DNA from: an uncultured Lutibacter sp.
GTDB taxonomy: Bacteria; Bacteroidota; Bacteroidia; Flavobacteriales; Flavobacteriaceae
Assembly (NCBI RefSeq): GCF_947493565.1
Contig: NZ_CANLRG010000003.1
Location: 124,001-188,000, forward strand
Reading direction: 5' to 3'
Length of the DNA stretch: 64,000 nt
Numbering within the stretch: position 1 is the first letter of the stretch; every line of letters starts with the position of its first letter. The notes under the pieces were generated by a model, which saw nothing but the letters and a program-made list of their open reading frames with translations, made no database searches and had not been told where the DNA came from. Positions 24,159-34,263 of the stretch are shown in pieces. A program made the translations under genes and the position numbers.

Positions 24159-24758
24159 TTAAGTATGTCTTCCTTCTAATATTTTTGAAATATCAGCAAG
24201 TTCATAGCCTTTAGCTTGCAATAAAATTAAGTAATGAAATAATAAATCTGCTCCTTCATTTAAAAATAATTCATCGTTAGAATCTTTAGCTTCAATCACA
24301 ATTTCTACAGCTTCTTCACCAACTTTTTGGGCAATTTTATTAATACCTTTTTCAAATAATGAGGCTACATAACTTTTATTAGAATCAGCTATTTCTCTTC
24401 TGTTTTTAATCACATTTTCTAAGGTAGTCAAAAAACCAAATGTTGGTTTATTTTCTTCATTCCAACAAGTATCTGAACCTGTATGACACGCAGGTCCCTC
24501 TGGATTTACTTGAATTAAAAGAGTGTCTTTATCACAATCATTTTTTATTGAAACAAGTTTTAAAAAATTCCCACTTTCTTCTCCTTTAGTCCAAAGTCTA
24601 TTTTTTGTTCTACTAAAAAAAGTAACCTTTTTTGTTTCAAGTGTTTTTAAATAAGCTTCTTCATTCATATAGCCTAACATCAAAACATTTTTTGTAGTTA
24701 CATCTTGAATAATTACTGGCACTAAACCGTTGTTATTTTTATTAAAATTTATAGTCAT
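24159..24758 (-). CDS. hisI: Bifunctional phosphoribosyl-AMP cyclohydrolase / phosphoribosyl-ATP pyrophosphatase
   Basis: HisIE carries out steps 2 and 3 of histidine synthesis. Residues about 1-105 are the cyclohydrolase (HisI) with metal-binding [12 protein letters not shown] and the motif GYMNEEA; about 110-199 are the pyrophosphatase (HisE) with KVGEEAVE. The 199-residue length fits a fusion. Its ATG overlaps the hisF stop by four bases. It is the last gene of the his operon. Confidence 0.97.
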
Positions 24759-25510
24759 AACCTTATGGGTATATTATTTTTTTTTAATTCTTTTTTTAAA
24801 TTATTAATCTCTATTTCTTTGAAGTGAAAAACACTTGCTGCCAATGCAGCATCAGCTTTGCCTTTTAAAAAAACATCGGTAAAATGTTGAATTTTTCCGG
24901 CACCACCAGATGCAATTATAGGAATATTAACCAATTCACTTAAATAAGCTAGAGCCTCATTTGCAAAACCATTTTTTGTACCATCGTGATCCATTGAAGT
25001 GAATAAAATTTCACCAGCTCCCAACTGTTCTACCTTTTTTACCCAATCAAATAATTTAATTTCTGTTGGAACTTTCCCTCCTACTAAATGAACCATCCAT
25101 TCTCCATCAATTTGTTTAGCATCAATAGCCACTACAATGCATTGACTTCCAAATTTTGAAGCCAAATCACTAATTAATTGTGGGTTTTTAACCGCCGAAG
25201 AGTTTATAGATACCTTATCTGCTCCCGAATTTAATAGTAATTCAACATCTTCAACCGAAGAAATTCCACCTCCAACAGTAAATGGTATATTGACTTTTTC
25301 AGCTACCTTTAAAACTAAATCAATTAAGGTTTTTCGCTTTTGTTCTGTAGCAGTGATATCTAAAAAAACTAACTCATCAGCGCCTTTTTTTGCGTAAATT
25401 TCGGCTAGTTCTACTGGATCACCAGCATCACGCAAATCGACAAAATTAATTCCTTTAACAGTTCTTCCGTTTTTAATATCTAAACACGGTACAATTCTTT
25501 TTGTTAACAT
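24755..25510 (-). CDS. hisF: Imidazole glycerol phosphate synthase subunit HisF
   Basis: The cyclase subunit of IGP synthase, a half-barrel-duplicated TIM barrel of 251 residues. Catalytic Asp residues are D11 (VPCLDIKNG) and the Asp of VVAIDAKQ near 130. It receives ammonia from HisH, encoded two genes upstream. It starts one base after the hisA stop and overlaps hisIE by four bases, so translation is probably coupled. Confidence 0.98.
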
Positions 25511-25511
25511 T

Positions 25512-26237
25512 TTAGTTATTTAAAATGAATTTTTCAAGTTGTTTCATACTTATTTTTTGTTCATAAATTGCTTTTCCAATAATGGTTCCTTCACAACCCA
25601 TTTCGGCTAATTTAGGTAACTCATCATAGGCTGAAATCCCTCCTGAAGCAATTAATTTAATGTTCGTGGTTGAGTTTAATATCTTTTGATATAAATCAAA
25701 TGAAGGTCCTTGTAACATGCCATCTTTTGAAATATCTGTACAAATAACATAACTAACACCATCCTTTTCATAATTTTGAATGAATGGAACAAGGCTTTCC
25801 TCACTCTCCTCTAACCAACCACTTATTGTTACTTTTTCGTTGATAGCATCAGCCCCTAATATTATTTTTTTGGAGCCAAACTTTTGCAACCAATTTTTAA
25901 AAGTGTCTGGTTTTTTAACTGCAATACTACCTCCTGTAATTTGAGTTGCACCAGATTCGAAAGCAATTTTTAAATCTTCATCAGATTTTAGACCTCCTCC
26001 AAAATCAATAGACAATTGAGTTTTAGATGCAATATTATCCAATACTTTATAGTTAACAATATGACTTGCTTTTGCCCCATCCAAATCAACCAAGTGCAAG
26101 TGCTTAACCCCATAATCTTGAAACATTTTAGCTACTTCTAATGGGTTTTCATTGTATATTTTTTGTGTGGAAAAATCGCCTTTTGAAAGGCGAACACATT
26201 TTCCATTTATAATATCAATTGCGGGTATAATTCTCAT
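25512..26237 (-). CDS. hisA: ProFAR isomerase HisA
   Basis: Isomerises ProFAR to PRFAR, a (beta/alpha)8 barrel of 241 residues related to HisF. Catalytic Asp residues are D8 in PAIDIING and the Asp of LGADAINEK near 129. The start of the gene overlaps the end of hisH by 23 bases. Confidence 0.98.
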
Positions 26238-26820
26238 GTGATAATTCTAAAAAATTCTTTATTATTTTTTCTCCTGAAATACTACTCTTCTCTGGATGAA
26301 ATTGCACACCATAAAAATTATCTTTTTGCAATGCTGAGGCATATTCTATTCCATATTCTGTAGTTGCTATGGCATTTTTATTTAAAGGAACATAATAGCT
26401 ATGTACTAAATACATATACTCGTTTTCTTTAATTCCTTTGAATAAATTAGTTGATAAATTTTTAATTTGATTCCATCCTATTTGAGGTACTTTCAGTTTT
26501 TTATCAAATTTTACAACTTCAGCATTAAAAATACCTAAACCACTTGTACTACCTTCTTCACTATAGTTGCACATTAATTGCATTCCTAAACAAATACCTA
26601 AAACAGGTTGGGTTAACTTAGGAATTATAGTGTTTAAACCAGTAGCTTTTAATTTTCTCATTGCACTACTTGCTTCCCCAACTCCAGGAAAAATAACTTT
26701 ATCTGCTTGCTCTATTTCTGAAATATTATCAGATAATATAGCGTCAAAACCTAGACGTTGTATTGCAAACTTGATAGACTGGATATTACCTGCTCCATAA
26801 TTAATAATTACTATTTTCAT
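26215..26820 (-). CDS. hisH: Imidazole glycerol phosphate synthase subunit HisH
   Basis: The class I glutamine amidotransferase subunit that feeds ammonia to HisF. The 201 residues include the nucleophile C77 in GICLGMQ and the His-Glu dyad in QFHPEKS near 178. The gene overlaps hisB by one base (TAATG) and hisA by 23 bases. Confidence 0.98.
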
Positions 26821-27956
26821 TATAACATTCCTTTAGTTGAAGGTAAAATCATTTTTTCAGAATCTCTTTTTACAGCAGCTTTAATTGCTTTTGCAAATGC
26901 TTTAAAAATACCTTCAATTTTATGATGTTCATTTACTCCTTCAGCTTTAATATTTAAGTTACATTTTGCACCATCTGTAAATGATTTAAACAAATGATAA
27001 AACATTTCTGTTGGCATTTTACCAATCATTTCACGTTTAAATTCTGCATCCCATACCAACCAATTTCTTCCTCCAAAATCTATAGCTACTTGCGCTAGGC
27101 AATCGTCCATAGGCAAACAAAAACCATAGCGTTCAATTCCTAATTTATTGCCTAATGCCTTTGAAAATACTTCACCTAAAGCTATCATGGTATCTTCAAT
27201 AGTATGGTGTTCATCTACTACTAAATCGCCATCAACTTTTATTGTTAAATCCATATTTCCGTGACGCGCAATTTGATCTAACATATGGTCAAAAAAAGCA
27301 ATTCCAGTTGAAATATCACTTTTACCTGTACCATCAATATTTAGTTTGATGTGTATTTTAGTTTCGTTAGTGTTTCGTGTTAATTCAGCTGTTCTATTCT
27401 TTAATTTTAAAAACTCATAAATTTTTTCCCAATCGTTACTCTCTAAGGCAATTACTTTATCTAATTCGCTTCTTTTAACTGTAGTTTCTCCAGTACCTAA
27501 ATTGGTATTATCATTGATAAAAATTCCTTTTGCACCTAAATTTTTAGCCAATTCTATATCAGTTAACCTATCTCCAATTACAAATGAATTTTCTAAATCA
27601 TATGCTTCAGAAAAATATTGAGTTAATAATCCTGTCTCTGGTTTTCGAGTAGGTGCATTTTCGTGAGGAAAGGTTCTATCTAAAAAAACATTACTGAAGA
27701 TAATACCTTCATTTTCAAAAGATTTTAAAATAAAATTATGAACTGGCCAAAAAGTTTCTTCAGGAAAAGAATCTGTTCCTAAACCATCTTGATTGGTTAT
27801 CATCACCAATTCAAAATCCAATTCTTTCGCTATTTTTCCTAAAAATGTAAATACCTTTGGGTAAAAGATCATTTTTTCAAACGCATCAATCTGTTCATCA
27901 ACGGTTTCTTTAATTATAGTTCCATCACGATCTATAAAAAGTACTTTTTTCTTCAT
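26820..27956 (-). CDS. hisB: Bifunctional histidinol-phosphatase / imidazoleglycerol-phosphate dehydratase
   Basis: The 378 residues hold an N-terminal HAD-type histidinol-phosphatase (D9-x-D11 in FIDRDGT; about 1-165) and a C-terminal IGP dehydratase (about 185-378) with the metal-binding motifs [13 protein letters not shown] and DEHHTIED. This fusion is also found in enterobacteria and is usual in Flavobacteriia. The junction with hisC is one base. Confidence 0.98.
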
Positions 27957-27957
27957 T

Positions 27958-28998
27958 TTAAATAGTTTTTAATGCATTTATAAGTTTTGTATTTTCTTGT
28001 TCATTCCCTACCGTTAAACGTAATGTGTTTTCACATAAAAGTTGAGAGGTTCTATTTCTAACAACCACTCCTTGTTGAAGTAATTGATGATATATTTTTG
28101 TTGCATCAGGAACTTTTACCAATACAAAATTAGCATCTGTTGGGTATATTTTTTCAATAAACGAAATGGTTTTAAGAGCGTTTATTAAAAACGTTCTTTG
28201 ATTTAAAATAGTGGTTATTTGATTTTTAATTTCCAAAGGTTTTACCAATCTATCTATCGCTCTTTGTTGGGTCAATTCATTTATATTATACGGTGGTTTT
28301 ATTTTATTTAAAATTGAAATAATTTCAGAAGAAGCATAACAAATTCCTAATCGAATACCAGCCATACCATAAGCTTTTGATAATGTTTGAGTAATTACCA
28401 AGTTTGGAAATTCGCTTAACCTTTGTAACCAGCTTTTTTGAGATGAAAAATCAATATAAGCTTCATCTATAACTACTATTCCTTTAAATGAATTTAACAG
28501 CTTCTCAACCTCTTTAGCTGTAAAAGAATTACCTGTTGGATTGTTTGGAGAACATAAAAATAATAGTTTAGAGTTTTTATTAGCAGAAGCTAAAATGGCA
28601 TTTACATTGGGTTGAAAATTTTCAGTTAAAAGCACTTCTTTATTTTCTACATTATTAATCTCAGCCAATACTTTATACATTCCATAAGTTGGTGGTAGCG
28701 TTAAAATATTATCTTCTTTAGGCTCACAAAAAGCTCTAAATAATAAATCCAATACCTCATCACTTCCATTGCCTAATAAAAGTTGATGTATTGAAACCCC
28801 TTTTAATTTTGCCAACTCCATTTTTACTAAAATTTGTTGTGGGTCTGGATAACGGTTTACCCCATTCTCAAACGGATTTTCATTGGCATCTAAAAACACC
28901 ATTTCTTTAGAAAAGTCTTTAAATTCATCACGTGCCGAAGAATATGGACTCACTTTTTTAATGTTAGCTCTAGTTATATTGTCAATACTAAAATTCAT
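27958..28998 (-). CDS. hisC: Histidinol-phosphate aminotransferase
   Basis: A PLP enzyme of fold type I with 346 residues that converts imidazole-acetol phosphate to histidinol phosphate. The Schiff-base lysine is K208 in [19 protein letters not shown] and VIDEAYIDF are the family motifs that contact the cofactor. Its ATG overlaps the hisD stop by one base. Confidence 0.98.
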
Positions 28999-30281
28999 TA
29001 TTTTAAATTATTTAAACGTAAAGTCACTGCATTTTTGTGAGCATCCAAACCCTCTGCCTCTGCCATAATTTCAATAGTTTTTCCTATATTTTGAATACCT
29101 TCCTTAGAAATTTTCTGAAATGAAATAGCTTTGGTGAAAGAATCTAAATTTACACCAGAATAAGCTTTGGTATGCCCATTTGTAGGTAATGTATGATTGG
29201 TTCCTGAAGCGTAATCACCTGCACTTTCAGGAGTATAATTTCCTATAAAAACAGAACCAGCGTTTTCAATTCCATCAGTATAAAAATCATTCGTATTAGT
29301 ACAAACAATAAAGTGTTCTGGACCGTACTCATTTATAAGTTCTAAAGCCACTTCTTTAGTTTCTACAAAAATTAGTTTTGAATTTTCAATTGCTTTTTCT
29401 GCAATTGTTTTTCGCGACAAACTATTCAGTTGTTTTACTAATTCTAATTTAACACTTTCCAGTATTTTTTTAGAAGTTGTTACCAAAATAACTTGACTAT
29501 CGGTTCCATGTTCTGCCTGACTCAATAAATCTGAAGCAACAAAACTAGCATTTGCACTATCATCGGCTACTACTAACAATTCACTTGGTCCTGCAGGCAT
29601 ATCAATTGCAACTCCAAACTTTGTTGCTAATTGCTTCGCCACCGTTACATATTGGTTACCTGGTCCAAAAATTTTAAATACTTTTGGAATACTTTCAGTC
29701 CCAAAGGCGAGTCCAGCAATAGCTTGAATACCCCCTACTTTTAAAATAGTTGTAACACCACAAATTTTAGCAGCATAAATAATTGCTGGATTAATTTCAC
29801 CTTTTTTATTAGGAGGAGAACATAAAATTATTTCTTTACAACCCGCTATTTTGGCAGGAATTGCCAACATTAATACCGAAGAAAATAATGGAGCGGTTCC
29901 TCCTGGTATATATAAGCCTACTTTTTGAATAGGTCTTTTTTCTTGCCAACAAAAAACACCACTTGTAGTTTCAATTTTATGGGTCTTGGTTTTTTGGGAA
30001 CTGTGAAACTTAGAAATATTATTTTTTGCAACTTGTATGGCTTCTTTAAGTTCCTTTGAAATTAAATTTTCAGCCTGTAAAATTTCTTCGTCAGTAACTT
30101 TGATATTGGTTAATTCTACACCATCAAATATAGAGGTATATCGCTTAATTCCGTCATCACCATTTCTTTTTACATCATCAAAAATTGAAGAAACTGTTGT
30201 TTCAATAGCTTCAACTGTTTTTGTAGGTCTTTGTAAAAGTGAAGACCAATTTTCTTTTGGTGGATTTATATTTGTGTTCAT
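28998..30281 (-). CDS. hisD: Histidinol dehydrogenase
   Basis: A zinc enzyme performing the last two NAD-dependent oxidations to histidine. The 427 residues match the family length. Signatures include GLYIPGGTAPLFSSVLM, GPGNQYVTVAKQ, DMPAGPSELLV and the C-terminal SAGDYASGTNHTLPT with its metal-binding residues. It follows hisG with a 24-nt gap. Confidence 0.98.
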   Translation of the reverse strand: MNTNINPPKENWSSLLQRPTKTVEAIETTVSSIFDDVKRNGDDGIKRYTSIFDGVELTNIKVTDEEILQAENLISKELKEAIQVAKNNISKFHSSQKTKTHKIETTSGVFCWQEKRPIQKVGLYIPGGTAPLFSSVLMLAIPAKIAGCKEIILCSPPNKKGEINPAIIYAAKICGVTTILKVGGIQAIAGLAFGTESIPKVFKIFGPGNQYVTVAKQLATKFGVAIDMPAGPSELLVVADDSANASFVASDLLSQAEHGTDSQVILVTTSKKILESVKLELVKQLNSLSRKTIAEKAIENSKLIFVETKEVALELINEYGPEHFIVCTNTNDFYTDGIENAGSVFIGNYTPESAGDYASGTNHTLPTNGHTKAYSGVNLDSFTKAISFQKISKEGIQNIGKTIEIMAEAEGLDAHKNAVTLRLNNLK

Positions 30282-30305: not shown

Positions 30306-31163
30306 TTATAGTACCATTTTTTCAATTGGAATTACTAAAAGTCCTTCAGCTCCATTTTCTTTTAATTCATCTATGACTTCCCAAAATGAATTTTTTTCAA
30401 TTACTGTATGAATTGAGCTCCATCCTTCTTCTGCCAAAGGTAAAACCGTAGGACTTCTCATTCCTGGCAGTAGTTTAATAATACTTGGTATTTTTTCATT
30501 GGGTGCATTCATTAAAATATATTTAGATTTTCTAGCTTTTAAAACCGCTTGAATTCTAAATTGAAGTTTGTTCAATATTTCTTGATTTTGGTTGGAAATA
30601 CTTGGAGAAACAGCCAACACTGCTTCGCTTGTTAATATTTGTTCAACTTCTTTTAAATTATTTTTAAATAAGGTACTTCCACTGGAAACAATATCACAAA
30701 TTGCATCAGCCAAACCAATATTAGGAGCTATTTCAACAGAACCATTAATGATATGTATGTCTGGTTTGACATTGAATCTTTTAAAATAGTTTAAAACGGT
30801 ATTGGGATATGAAGTTGCTATACGAGCTTCATTTAAATCTTGAATATTAGTATAAGATACATCTTTAGGCACTGCAATAGAAACCCTGCATTTTGAAAAC
30901 CCTAATTTTTCGGCAACAGTAATATCTGTACCCTTTTCAACTAAAACATTTTCTCCAATAATAGCAATATCTACTACACCATCTCTTAAATATTGAGGAA
31001 TATCACCATTTCTCAAATAGAAAACCTCTAAAGGAAAGTTACTTGCTGAAGCTTTTAATTGATCTTTTCCATTATCAATTGAAATACCACAATCTTTTAA
31101 TAGTTTAAGTGAATCTTCGTTTAATCTTCCTGATTTTTGAACTGCGATTTTTATTTTATTCAT
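30306..31163 (-). CDS. hisG: ATP phosphoribosyltransferase, long form
   Basis: The first and feedback-controlled enzyme of histidine synthesis. The 285 residues make it the long HisG type, with a C-terminal ACT-like regulatory domain (about 215-285) and no need for HisZ. The PRPP-binding segment is DIVSSGSTLF. It is the first structural gene of the operon and lies 45 nt past the attenuator terminator, so expression is controlled both by attenuation and, by family knowledge, by histidine feedback. Confidence 0.97.
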   Translation of the reverse strand: MNKIKIAVQKSGRLNEDSLKLLKDCGISIDNGKDQLKASASNFPLEVFYLRNGDIPQYLRDGVVDIAIIGENVLVEKGTDITVAEKLGFSKCRVSIAVPKDVSYTNIQDLNEARIATSYPNTVLNYFKRFNVKPDIHIINGSVEIAPNIGLADAICDIVSSGSTLFKNNLKEVEQILTSEAVLAVSPSISNQNQEILNKLQFRIQAVLKARKSKYILMNAPNEKIPSIIKLLPGMRSPTVLPLAEEGWSSIHTVIEKNSFWEVIDELKENGAEGLLVIPIEKMVL

Positions 31164-31208
31164 TTTTTAATTTCATAAGTTTCAGTAAATCAAAAAGGAA
31201 TAAAAACA

Positions 31209-31241
31209 AAAAACCCGTTTGATTTACTCAAACGGGTTTTT
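31209..31241 (-). terminator. Attenuator terminator of the his operon
   Basis: A 14-bp perfect stem (31209-31222 with 31228-31241) and a 5-nt loop, followed on the minus strand by a U-rich run. It sits between the leader peptide and hisG. Its first arm plus two loop bases (31226-31234) can instead pair with 31279-31287 inside the leader peptide gene, giving an antiterminator of nine pairs including one G-U. Confidence 0.9.
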
Positions 31242-31272
31242 AAATATATTTTTAACTTTATTCAATACATTT

Positions 31273-31329
31273 TCAGCTCGCTTGAGTGCCAGTATGAAAA
31301 TGATGATGATGTAGTTGAATAAATGTCAT
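31273..31329 (-). CDS. hisL: his operon leader peptide
   Basis: An 18-codon reading frame, MTFIQLHHHHFHTGTQAS, with four consecutive His codons and a fifth two codons later. It begins 19 nt after the -7 box of the his promoter and stops 31 nt before the attenuator stem. A ribosome stalled on the His codons would leave 31279-31287 (the Thr-Gln-Ala codons) free to pair with the terminator's first arm and allow transcription into hisG. This is the classic enterobacterial his mechanism by analogy. It was missed by ordinary gene calling because of its length. Confidence 0.88.
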   Translation of the reverse strand: MTFIQLHHHHFHTGTQAS

Positions 31330-31347
31330 ATTTTTTATTTTACTTGG

Positions 31348-31376
31348 CAAATATATAAAAATGATTTAATAAACAA
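31348..31376 (-). promoter_or_regulatory. his operon promoter (TTG-N18-TATATTTG)
   Basis: On the minus strand, -33 TTG (31376-31374) and -7 TATATTTG (31355-31348) are 18 nt apart. It lies between the upstream epimerase gene and the leader peptide, so the operon is transcribed independently. Confidence 0.75.
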
Positions 31377-31385
31377 CCAAAAACT

Positions 31386-32432
31386 TTATGAATTAAGTTC
31401 TAAATATTTTTTTACAAAATTCTTAACCCCATCTTCTAGCTTAGTCTGAGGCTTAAAATTGATGTAGTTAAATAAACTTTCAACATTGGCATAGGTAGAT
31501 TGTACATCTCCAGGTTGCATAGGTTTAAAAACAACTTTCCCCTTTTTCCCTAACGCTTTTTCAATTGCTTTAATAAAATCCATTAAAGCAACTGGACTGT
31601 TGTTTCCAATGTTAAAAATTTGATATGGTTTTGAACTTTTTGATGGTACAGGTTTTTTTGGATTAAACTTAAGGTTATTTTCTTTTGGTGCTAAAGGCAG
31701 CAATCTTTTAATACTTTCAACAATATCACCAACATAAGTAAAATCCCTACTCATATCACCATTATTAAACACTTCAAATTCTTTATCTGCAACTATTGCT
31801 TTGGTAAAAATATGCAGTGCCATATCTGGTCTTCCCCAAGGTCCATAAACCGTAAAAAACCTTAATCCAGTTGAAGGAATGTTATACAAATTAGCATATG
31901 AATGTGCCATCATTTCATTGGCTTTTTTACTTGCTGCATACATTGCTAAAGGATGATCGGTACAATGATCTTCATGAAAAGGAATTTCTTCACTTAAACC
32001 ATATACAGAACTTGATGAAGCAAATATTAAATGTTCTACAGGAAATGCTCTACAGCATTCTAAAATATTTAAAAATCCGGTAATATTACTATCTACATAT
32101 GAATGTGGATTTTTTAATGAATAACGTACACCTGCTTGTGCTGCTAAATTTACCACATAATCAAAACTTTGAGCTTTAAATAACTTTTTTAAATTATCTA
32201 AATCTGTTAAATCTAATTTTATAAATGAATTTAAACCTACCGATAGTAATTTGTTATATTCAATTTCAGAAGTTTTAAAACCTAAATCAGTTAATCTGGC
32301 TAGTTTTAAATTAACATCATAATAGTCATTAATATTATCCATTCCAACCACTTTGTAATTGTTTTTCAACAATAATTTGGCTAAATGGTGACCAATAAAA
32401 CCGGCCATTCCTGTAATCAATACTTTTTTCAT
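31386..32432 (-). CDS. NAD-dependent sugar-nucleotide epimerase (UDP-glucuronate 4-epimerase-like)
   Basis: A 348-residue extended short-chain dehydrogenase. The N-terminal Rossmann motif is GMAGFIGHH, the catalytic Tyr-Lys pair is in YAASKKANE, and RFFTVYGPWGRPDMA is typical of UDP-glucuronate epimerases that feed capsule or LPS synthesis. The substrate assignment is by family resemblance. The ATG at 32432 is preferred over the in-frame TTG at 32462, which is the end of a -7 box (32462-32469). It stands alone, without other polysaccharide genes nearby. Confidence 0.88.
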   Translation of the reverse strand: MKKVLITGMAGFIGHHLAKLLLKNNYKVVGMDNINDYYDVNLKLARLTDLGFKTSEIEYNKLLSVGLNSFIKLDLTDLDNLKKLFKAQSFDYVVNLAAQAGVRYSLKNPHSYVDSNITGFLNILECCRAFPVEHLIFASSSSVYGLSEEIPFHEDHCTDHPLAMYAASKKANEMMAHSYANLYNIPSTGLRFFTVYGPWGRPDMALHIFTKAIVADKEFEVFNNGDMSRDFTYVGDIVESIKRLLPLAPKENNLKFNPKKPVPSKSSKPYQIFNIGNNSPVALMDFIKAIEKALGKKGKVVFKPMQPGDVQSTYANVESLFNYINFKPQTKLEDGVKNFVKKYLELNS

Positions 32433-32461
32433 AAGTTCTTTTGATTTTTTTAGGTCTTGCA

Positions 32462-32469
32462 CAAAAATA
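32462..32469 (-). promoter_or_regulatory. -7 box (TATTTTTG) for the epimerase gene
   Basis: A TAnnTTTG match on the minus strand, 29 nt before the ATG at 32432. Its last three bases are an in-frame TTG that mimics a start codon. Confidence 0.5.
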
Positions 32470-32571
32470 AAACTAATTGCTAAAACAACTTAAACATGTA
32501 ACATTTATTTTAAAAGATTGATTTAATTTGAAAATAACTGATTAAATTTGACTCATTAAATTTTGAATAAA

Positions 32572-34263
32572 ATGAACAAACAATTAATAGAATGTGTTCC
32601 TAATATTAGTGAAGGACGAGATATCACAAAAATTAATGCAATTGCCAACGTAGTTGAAACTGTTGAAGGAGTTAAGTTATTAGATGTTGACCCTGGAAAG
32701 GCCACCAATAGAACAGTAATTACTTTTGTAGGTGAGCCAGAAAATGTAATTGAAGCAGCTTTTAGGCTCATTAAAAAAGCTTCTGAATTAATTGATATGA
32801 ATAAACATAGTGGAGAGCATCCTAGATTTGGTGCTACAGATGTTTGTCCGTTAGTTCCAATTTCTAATATAAGTCTTGAAGAAGCTGCTAAATATGCTCA
32901 TAAATTAGGAGAACGTGTTGGGAATGAATTGGGAATACCTGGTTATTTTTATGAAAATGCAGCCAAGGAAGAAAAAAGAAAAAATTTAGCTAACTGTCGT
33001 TCCGGAGAATACGAAGGTTTAAAAGAAAAACTCGTAAAACCAGAATGGAAACCAGATTTTGGTCCTGCAGAATTTAATACCTCTGTAGCAAAAAGTGGTG
33101 CTACCGCAATTTCTGCACGTGATTTTTTAATTGCTTACAATATCAATTTAAACACTACTTCAACTAGAAGAGCTAATGCCATTGCATTTGACATTCGTGA
33201 AGCTGGAAGAATTTTACGTGAAGGAAACCCATCTACAGGGAAAAAAGTGTTGGATGCCAATGGTGAACCTGTTAGAATTCCTGGAAAATTAAAAGCTGTT
33301 AAAGGAATTGGATGGTATATTGAAGAATATGGTATTGCCCAAATTTCATACAATTTAACCAATATTAGTATTACTTCTATGCACGTTGCTTTTGACGAAA
33401 CCGTAAAAGCAGCAACAGAAAGAGGTTTACGTGTAACTGGCTCTGAATTAATAGGTTTAATACCTCTTAAGGCAATGTTAGATGCTGGAGATTATTTTTT
33501 ACGTAAACAACATAGATCTCTTGGTATTTCTGAAGAAGAAAAAATTAAAATAGCGGTAAAATCTCTTGGATTAGATGACTTAAAACCTTTTAATCCTAAA
33601 GAGAAAATTATTGAATATTTATTAGAAGATGATACTAAAAAGTTAGTAGACCTTACCGTAACTGGTTTTGCTGAAGAAACCGCTGGAGAATCTATGGCTC
33701 CAGGAGGAGGATCTATTTCTGCTTATGTAGGTGCTTTAGGAGTTTCATTAGGAACTATGGTTGCTAATTTATCTTCTCATAAAGCTGGTTGGGACGATAA
33801 ATGGGAATTTTATTCAGATTGGGCGGTAAAAGGACAAGCATATAAAAACAAACTACTATTTTTAGTTGATGAAGACACCAATGCGTTTAATAAAATTATT
33901 GATGGATTTAGAATGCCAAAATCTACTAATGAAGAAATTGAAGCTAGAAAACAAGCTATTGAAACTGCAACAAAATATGCAACTGAAATTCCTTTTGAAG
34001 TGATGCAAACCGCCTACAATTCAATGGAAGTGATGAAAACTATGGTTAAAGAAGGAATGCAAAGTTCTATTTCAGATGCTGGTGTGGGAATATTGTGTGC
34101 TAAAACTGCTGTAACTGGAGCATATTTTAATGTACGCATCAATGCAAAAGATATTAAAGATCGTAATTTTGCAGATGCTATTATTTCTAAAGCCAAAGAC
34201 ATTTATAAGAAAACTTGTGCTATTGAAAAAGAGATTATGGACTATATTGATTCTAAAATGTAA
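32572..34263 (+). CDS. ftcD: Bifunctional glutamate formimidoyltransferase / formiminotetrahydrofolate cyclodeaminase
   Basis: A 563-residue fusion. The N-terminal part (about 1-300) is the formiminotransferase, beginning CVPNISEG with the HSGEHPRFGATDVCP motif; the C-terminal part (about 355-560) is the all-helical cyclodeaminase with APGGGSISAYVGALG. Together they move the formimino group of N-formiminoglutamate to tetrahydrofolate and close it to methenyl-THF, the last part of histidine degradation. No hutH, hutU or hutI is in the window. ATG 32572 is chosen over the in-frame TTG at 32563. A -7 box TAAATTTG lies at 32543-32550. Confidence 0.95.
   Translation: MNKQLIECVPNISEGRDITKINAIANVVETVEGVKLLDVDPGKATNRTVITFVGEPENVIEAAFRLIKKASELIDMNKHSGEHPRFGATDVCPLVPISNISLEEAAKYAHKLGERVGNELGIPGYFYENAAKEEKRKNLANCRSGEYEGLKEKLVKPEWKPDFGPAEFNTSVAKSGATAISARDFLIAYNINLNTTSTRRANAIAFDIREAGRILREGNPSTGKKVLDANGEPVRIPGKLKAVKGIGWYIEEYGIAQISYNLTNISITSMHVAFDETVKAATERGLRVTGSELIGLIPLKAMLDAGDYFLRKQHRSLGISEEEKIKIAVKSLGLDDLKPFNPKEKIIEYLLEDDTKKLVDLTVTGFAEETAGESMAPGGGSISAYVGALGVSLGTMVANLSSHKAGWDDKWEFYSDWAVKGQAYKNKLLFLVDEDTNAFNKIIDGFRMPKSTNEEIEARKQAIETATKYATEIPFEVMQTAYNSMEVMKTMVKEGMQSSISDAGVGILCAKTAVTGAYFNVRINAKDIKDRNFADAIISKAKDIYKKTCAIEKEIMDYIDSKM

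Follow-up and report, generated by a model that had tools for sequence, protein, structure and literature searches.

The region in front of hisG in this uncultured Lutibacter sp. raises the question whether its histidine operon is controlled through a translated leader. In the classical hisL arrangement, a short leader carries a run of His codons, a protector hairpin lies over the His codons and the stop codon, and a terminator precedes hisG. The element described here shares with E. coli and Salmonella hisL the His run, the protector hairpin and the terminator before hisG. Unlike in hisL, its antiterminator strand lies inside the last codons of the leader. We consider it to be a ribosome-mediated transcription attenuator of the his operon, with a probability of about 0.93. 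The window is the whole 64-kb stretch of DNA that was analysed. Its relevant features, with the evidence for each, are:

31348..31376, minus strand: promoter-like site of the Bacteroidota type, TTG-N18-TATATTTG (read from the sequence)
31273..31329, minus strand: leader ORF, MTFIQLHHHHFHTGTQAS (direct reading and presence in relatives)
31315..31323, minus strand: 5' arm of protector stem P1, codons 3-5, UUUAUUCAA (MFE fold; changes on both sides)
31268..31302, minus strand: inner hairpin of the protector, in which GCGAGCUGAAAAUG pairs with the last His codons and CUGGC (fold and consensus of 18 sequences)
31279..31287, minus strand: antiterminator strand 2, ACUCAAGCG, leader codons Thr-Gln-Ala (folding, strand comparison, alignment)
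31257..31265, minus strand: 3' arm of protector stem P1, UUGAAUAAA, past the stop codon (fold and alignment; probability 0.97 without ribosome)
31226..31234, minus strand: antiterminator strand 3, CGUUUGAGU, two loop bases and the adjoining part of the terminator's first arm (folding, strand comparison, alignment)
31209..31241, minus strand: intrinsic terminator, 14-bp stem, 5-nt loop, U-rich tail from 31208 (fold, terminator scan, alignment)
30306..31163, minus strand: hisG, first gene of the operon (Pfam HisG 7e-50, HisG_C 2e-29)
24159..30281, minus strand: hisD, hisC, hisB (bifunctional), hisH, hisA, hisF and hisIE (ORFs and Pfam)

Elements of the hisG leader

The eight-gene operon that the earlier note had placed behind the leader is present, in the order hisG-D-C-B-H-A-F-IE, with gaps of at most 24 nt or overlaps. 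Upstream, an epimerase-like gene on the same strand (31386-32462) ends 56 nt 5' of the leader ATG. Beyond the epimerase-like gene, at a distance of 1.4 kb from the hisG start, the opposite strand carries a formiminotransferase-cyclodeaminase gene (32563-34263, plus strand; Pfam FTCD_N, FTCD and FTCD_C). We take its product to belong to a histidine breakdown family.

The leader ORF has 18 codons, from ATG at 31329-31327 to TGA at 31275-31273 on the minus strand. Five of the 18 are His codons, a row of four CAT (31311-31300) and one more at 31296-31294, as first read in the earlier note. This is thus a short, putatively translated leader rich in codons for the amino acid under regulation. RNA of the leader region folds at -37.2 kcal/mol, compared to a shuffle mean of -16.5 kcal/mol (z -6.5; 0 of 200 shuffles as good). 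In the promoter-like site, TTG occupies 31376-31374 and TATATTTG occupies 31355-31348, separated by an 18-nt spacer. It is assigned to the Bacteroidota promoter type by its resemblance to the consensus of that phylum. Transcription of the leader RNA would be expected to start near 31340.

Between the leader and hisG lies a predicted intrinsic terminator, in which 31241-31228 pairs with 31222-31209 (14 pairs, 5 of them G-C; loop of 5 nt; T-rich tail). The hairpin pattern was found at a single place in the whole genome. Leader positions 31287-31279 are complementary to 31234-31226, with nine pairs, one of them G-U, and a duplex energy of -10.6 kcal/mol. Both the 14-bp terminator and the nine competing pairs had been claimed before and stand. 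The claim that all antiterminator partners lie in the terminator's first arm does not: seven of the nine are there, and two (31227 and 31226) are in the loop. One antiterminator position is G-U in 18 of 18 aligned sequences, although within the terminator its U has A or G as partner. This wobble is perhaps maintained by GC pairing of the inner hairpin.

The earlier description lacked two further elements, the protector stem P1 and the inner hairpin. Codons 3-5 pair perfectly with 31265-31257, past the stop codon, to form P1, which encloses a hairpin containing part of the antiterminator strand. An additional inner antiterminator helix, AAAUGUAUU with AAUAUAUUU, also appears in the window's fold. 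As a general element it reached p≤0.05 at 22 of 80 near and 5 of 80 class loci (sets defined below). We leave this helix unclaimed because it is suggestive near the window and not class-wide.

Computed folds and the proposed switch

We folded the leader RNA with the bases under a ribosome masked, on the assumption that the ribosome covers 15 nt before and 11 nt after the first A-site base. Without a ribosome, the probabilities were 0.97 for P1 and 0.00 for the antiterminator. Placing a ribosome at His codon 1, 2, 3 or 4 disrupted P1 and freed the antiterminator strand; in RNA ending at 31226-31218, the antiterminator then reached 0.98-0.99. With no ribosome, or with the ribosome at the stop codon, it remained at 0.00 over the same RNA ends. 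At the fifth His codon it reached only 0.49-0.66. The geometry proposed earlier, in which stalling at His codons frees the antiterminator, thus works in masked folding.

The preference for the antiterminator is confined to a short interval of synthesis. In RNA ending at 31215, the antiterminator was already down to 0.00-0.23, and in full-length RNA at equilibrium (end at 31203) the terminator had a probability of 0.96-0.97 wherever the ribosome was placed. Since the terminator is more stable (-17.5 kcal/mol) than the antiterminator (-10.6 kcal/mol), the switch must be kinetic, set by the order of synthesis. Known attenuators switch in this way. The computed folds are thus consistent with a mutually exclusive antiterminator that stalling would free kinetically and not at equilibrium.

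From the elements, their conservation and covariation and the computed alternative folds, all of which are shown here, we infer stalling, termination and a response to histidine, which would proceed as follows. With ample charged His-tRNA, the ribosome would reach the leader stop codon and cover the Thr-Gln-Ala strand; the terminator would form, and RNA polymerase would halt before hisG. With His-tRNA scarce, the ribosome would stall at the His codons and open the protector stem-loop, leaving the Thr-Gln-Ala strand free to pair with the loop-side portion of the first terminator arm the moment that this portion emerges. Once the antiterminator had formed, the terminator could not nucleate in time, and the eight his genes would be transcribed. 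Without any ribosome, the protector stem-loop would conceal the antiterminator strand and transcription would stop. This predicted role of the protector, favouring termination in the absence of translation, is seen in the folds of the window and is weak in the wider set.

Conservation of the leader and its pairings

Two sets of hisG upstream regions were analysed. The near set comprises 80 HisG relatives of the window; the 11 best are 83-89% identical, and 9 of these are labelled Lutibacter. The class set derives from an even draw of 296 genomes including the window's own, of which 136 have HisG and 135 yielded upstream regions. The remaining one (G290) was left out, as its contig begins 86 nt upstream, and so were the second fragments of split hisG genes in G013 and G054. 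Note that the class set contains the window once more (as L082), and that the named and unnamed sets may overlap in genomes.

A His leader was found in 79 of the 80 relatives; the contig of the 80th (L080) has just 180 nt upstream. A short ORF with three or more His among 6 codons occurred in 80 of the 81 near upstream regions (relatives plus window), compared to 1.1 of 81 in shuffles. Across the class, 121 of the 135 HisG-bearing genomes, window included, have a His leader: 120 of the 132 loci placed by script, where shuffling gave 3.8, and one of three placed by hand (L196, L199 and L214). No His leader was found in 12 of the 132 script-scored loci and two of the three checked by hand. ORFs with at least 4 His were present at 106 of the 132 loci versus 0.1 by shuffling, and 35 of the 39 families examined by script have at least one His leader. 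The His codons, whose loss the earlier note would have counted against attenuation, thus persist in relatives. Among the 240 codons that open the His runs of the near set, three per leader, departures from CAU fell 9 times at position 3, 3 times at position 2 and once at position 1, and gaps inside the aligned leader ORFs are whole codons. This concentration of changes at position 3, together with the whole-codon gaps, indicates that the reading frame is kept.

The earlier promoter assignment held on re-reading, and a motif of this type, TAnnTTTG, is enriched 5' of the leaders. Of 80 near and 120 class leaders, 47 and 96 have it within 70 nt of the ATG, at variable distance, where shuffling predicts 5.4 and 4.7, respectively.

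Terminator tests kept 169 of 200 leaders; 23 lacked a hairpin as defined by the rule and 8 failed the spacing or stem filter. The rule misses mismatched stems and long loops, so that some of the 23 (L094, L097, L098, L119 and L129) visibly have a hairpin and T tract. We then aligned the window with 17 of the 80 relatives, chosen for leaders resembling its own. In these 18 sequences, antiterminator and P1 together had 95.7% of cells paired, with four doubly changed pairs, and slid controls gave 26-50%. The terminator had 100% of 227 cells paired and one doubly changed pair. The covariation score of antiterminator plus P1 was reached by 0 of 500 shuffles and that of the terminator by 2 of 500, and the numbers of doubly changed pairs by 11 and 109 of 500, respectively, though related sequences can beat such shuffles without any structure, as the covariation tool warns. 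RNAalifold, supplied with no structure, recovered P1 and the inner hairpin as well as the terminator from the 18 sequences.

P1 is doubly changed at 2 of its 9 pairs in this alignment. Three relatives (L009, L011 and L022) keep it by double changes, U-A to C-G and U-A to A-U; two of them lose one other P1 pair. P1 complementarity reached p≤0.05 at 18 of the 80 near loci and at 19 of 91 in the class set. A stalled ribosome, compared to none, gave at least 2 extra paired bases at 42 of the 80 near loci and at 64 of 89 in the class set, and never the reverse. The protector is well supported close to the window and weak elsewhere; because P1 complementarity in distant loci is weakly above chance, it may be weaker there or take other forms.

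Across the class, the terminator arm is mostly of two sequence types, with 22 of the 169 leaders fitting neither. A CGUYUGA-like arm goes with a UCARGCG-like leader strand, all seven positions being paired in 91 of 107 leaders; where the arm is CGUCUGA, G and not A stands opposite its C in 11 of 11. A GCUURCC-like arm goes with a GGURRGC-like leader strand, all seven being paired in 30 of 40. Antiterminator strands 2 and 3 thus change together between clades, with their pairing kept despite entirely different sequences. Controls were added because the best 7-mer had been picked, which favours pairing. With shuffled leaders as control, the antiterminator reached p≤0.05 at 94 of 171 loci. Such single-sequence tests are individually weak because the terminator arm is short, and cross-family and folding controls were therefore included. 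When a terminator's own pairing was compared with that to leaders of other families, its mean percentile was 0.79, exceeding 0.5 in 29 of 31 families. In masked folding with the ribosome stalled, the leader paired with 11.3 strand-3 bases in the near set and 9.2 in the class set, compared to 3.9 and 3.8 when the stretch from leader to terminator was shuffled. Real exceeded shuffled pairing in 30 of 31 families, and the observed value was reached by at most 5% of shuffles at 68 of 80 near and 49 of 89 class loci. All three controls favour selection for antiterminator pairing. The contrast between a stalled ribosome and one at the stop codon was rejected as independent evidence, since the mask at the stop covers the counted strand and the contrast is partly built in.

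These data bear on a simpler explanation, that the hairpin merely serves constitutively to end transcription of the epimerase-like gene, with the His-rich ORF there by chance. The gene shares the leader's strand, with 56 nt from its end to the leader ATG, and the terminator scan listed just this one terminator-like site on the minus strand from that gene to hisG. However, leader and hairpin travel with hisG in relatives, the complementarity between ORF and hairpin covaries, and a promoter-like site sits between the epimerase-like gene and hisG. We regard this explanation as very improbable; a side role of the hairpin in terminating readthrough from the epimerase-like gene is possible. The earlier note had named the loss of both pairings in close relatives as evidence against attenuation; in most relatives that have a terminator, terminator and antiterminator are both kept, with compensatory changes.

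Leaders without a terminator and relation to known systems

Some His leaders in the class are not followed by a recognisable intrinsic terminator. In families f16 (L152, L154, L155, L163 and L178) and f3 (L145, L150 and L167), leaders end in HHFHHSS or a similar sequence, and in most of them a hairpin of the type AUUCCUCnnnnGAGGAAU spans the stop codon; no credible intrinsic terminator before hisG and no Rfam match was found for them. Other f16 and f3 leaders (L137, L146, L161 and L156) do have terminators. Family f39 has 12 His leaders (L198, L200, L201, L204-L209 and L211-L213), and the terminator search gave no hit in 9 of them and in 3 a single hit overlapping the ORF, none credible. Here the last His codons and the codons that follow form a hairpin, for example CACCAC:GUGGUG in L200, and GUUUCUACGCGAAAU lies past the stop codon at five loci (L200, L201, L205, L207 and L209). 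If the His leader has been kept in such loci and the intrinsic terminator lost, stalling there would have to use another output, such as Rho or hisG mRNA structure.

The existence of such leaders means that another output may exist somewhere in the class, and lends some interest to translational attenuation, in which alternative folds would control translation of hisG and not its transcription. In the window, however, the inhibitory hairpin ends 45 nt before hisG, clear of its start, with a U-rich tract behind it. Control of translation is therefore highly unlikely here. Action of the leader peptide in trans, as reported for Sinorhizobium meliloti peTrpL (PMC7298713), is similarly unlikely as the explanation of this locus. 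Outside the His run the peptide varies across the class (e.g. ...HTGTQAS, ...HTYPKG and ...HNNSCQ) and is unconserved, whereas the RNA complementarity is conserved; moreover, a trans-acting peptide would be an addition to attenuation and not a replacement. Least probable of all is another histidine sensor as the true regulator with the leader a relic: T-box and HisR-type systems regulate Firmicutes his operons (PMC9413887), but no Rfam family, T-box included, reached its gathering score anywhere in the window, T-box was absent upstream of the operon also among the 24 weak matches, and class-wide conservation is unlike a relic.

The top Rfam match of the region is RF00514 (His_leader), aligned over the whole model with 35.6 bits (E 0.00022 over 271 bases). 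Because this is below the gathering score of 49, the element is not a member by the Rfam rule, and the match is unspecific, as the next one, PyrR, scores 32.8. No match at gathering was found in 16 loci with odd or terminatorless leaders.

The attenuator reading is also supported by further candidate attenuators in the same genome, outside the window. Leader MNWWWNSLMQ with a terminator hairpin precedes a trpE-like gene (L219), and leader MKTNNTWNRFYFYFYFINKG with a terminator hairpin precedes a prephenate dehydratase gene (L217); these are probable Trp and Phe/Tyr attenuators. In front of ilvD (L218; C4, ~211.4 kb), where leader sequence is rich in Ile/Leu/Val, there are two tandem units of leader plus terminator, MKQVIINIISISISVIIPQKR and MNKKGTSIIILIQVIIICLIS, each with its own hairpin and U tract. 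The ilvD scan covered 26 of 28 loci and placed 13 of the 26, L218 included. Two further loci (L231 and L232) also have both ORFs, with one terminator scored each; the other ten have a single leader-like, Ile/Val-rich ORF.

Related elements have been described in part. In Flavobacterium psychrophilum, a 2021 transcriptome study reports a structured 5' element of hisG that is conserved in other Flavobacteriaceae genera and has no Rfam hit, and suggests leader-peptide attenuation for amino-acid operons (PMC9723704); the accessible text gives no leader peptide, pairing or covariation for the hisG element. For Firmicutes, His leaders with stretches of three to five His codons in a row (PMC9413887, 2022) and with terminators and antiterminators predicted by comparison (PMC9413887; PMC2965389, 2010) have been reported. 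These belong to another phylum and to few lineages, in contrast to the 35 of 39 Bacteroidia families found here. The 2010 study states that before its own Firmicutes cases none were known outside Proteobacteria and Actinobacteria. A 2021 paper on Bacteroidota his genes mentions attenuation once in its available text, in the introductory section on regulation (PMC8305728), and a study of Bacteroides thetaiotaomicron 5' UTRs lists unnamed leader-like sORFs, with histidine unmentioned in the portions available (PMC7366714). Related cases may also be listed by Lopatovskaya et al. 2010, which PMC4833913 cites. We found no survey of His leaders across Bacteroidota in the open-access literature searched. 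The mechanism is classic; what is newer is how widely such leaders occur in the class, some of them with no recognisable intrinsic terminator.

We put at roughly even odds a wider reading, in which His-leader attenuation is near-universal in Bacteroidia, probably ancestral and not a proteobacterial speciality. Its strands would have been replaced wholesale between clades with the logic kept, and f39 and parts of f16 and f3 would have lost the terminator, kept the leader and act through another output. A 2013 survey proposed that amino-acid attenuators may originate in gammaproteobacteria, with very few transfers (PMC3766115), and the class-wide His leader (121 of 135) contrasts with this view. 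Little on amino-acid regulation in the phylum Bacteroidota was found in the open-access literature searched here. For this phylum, the leader is a candidate control element and a testable reporter of histidine starvation, and attenuation here would imply the transcription-translation timing that it requires. In this Lutibacter, leader and stop signal very probably let the his genes run only when histidine is scarce, as in E. coli.
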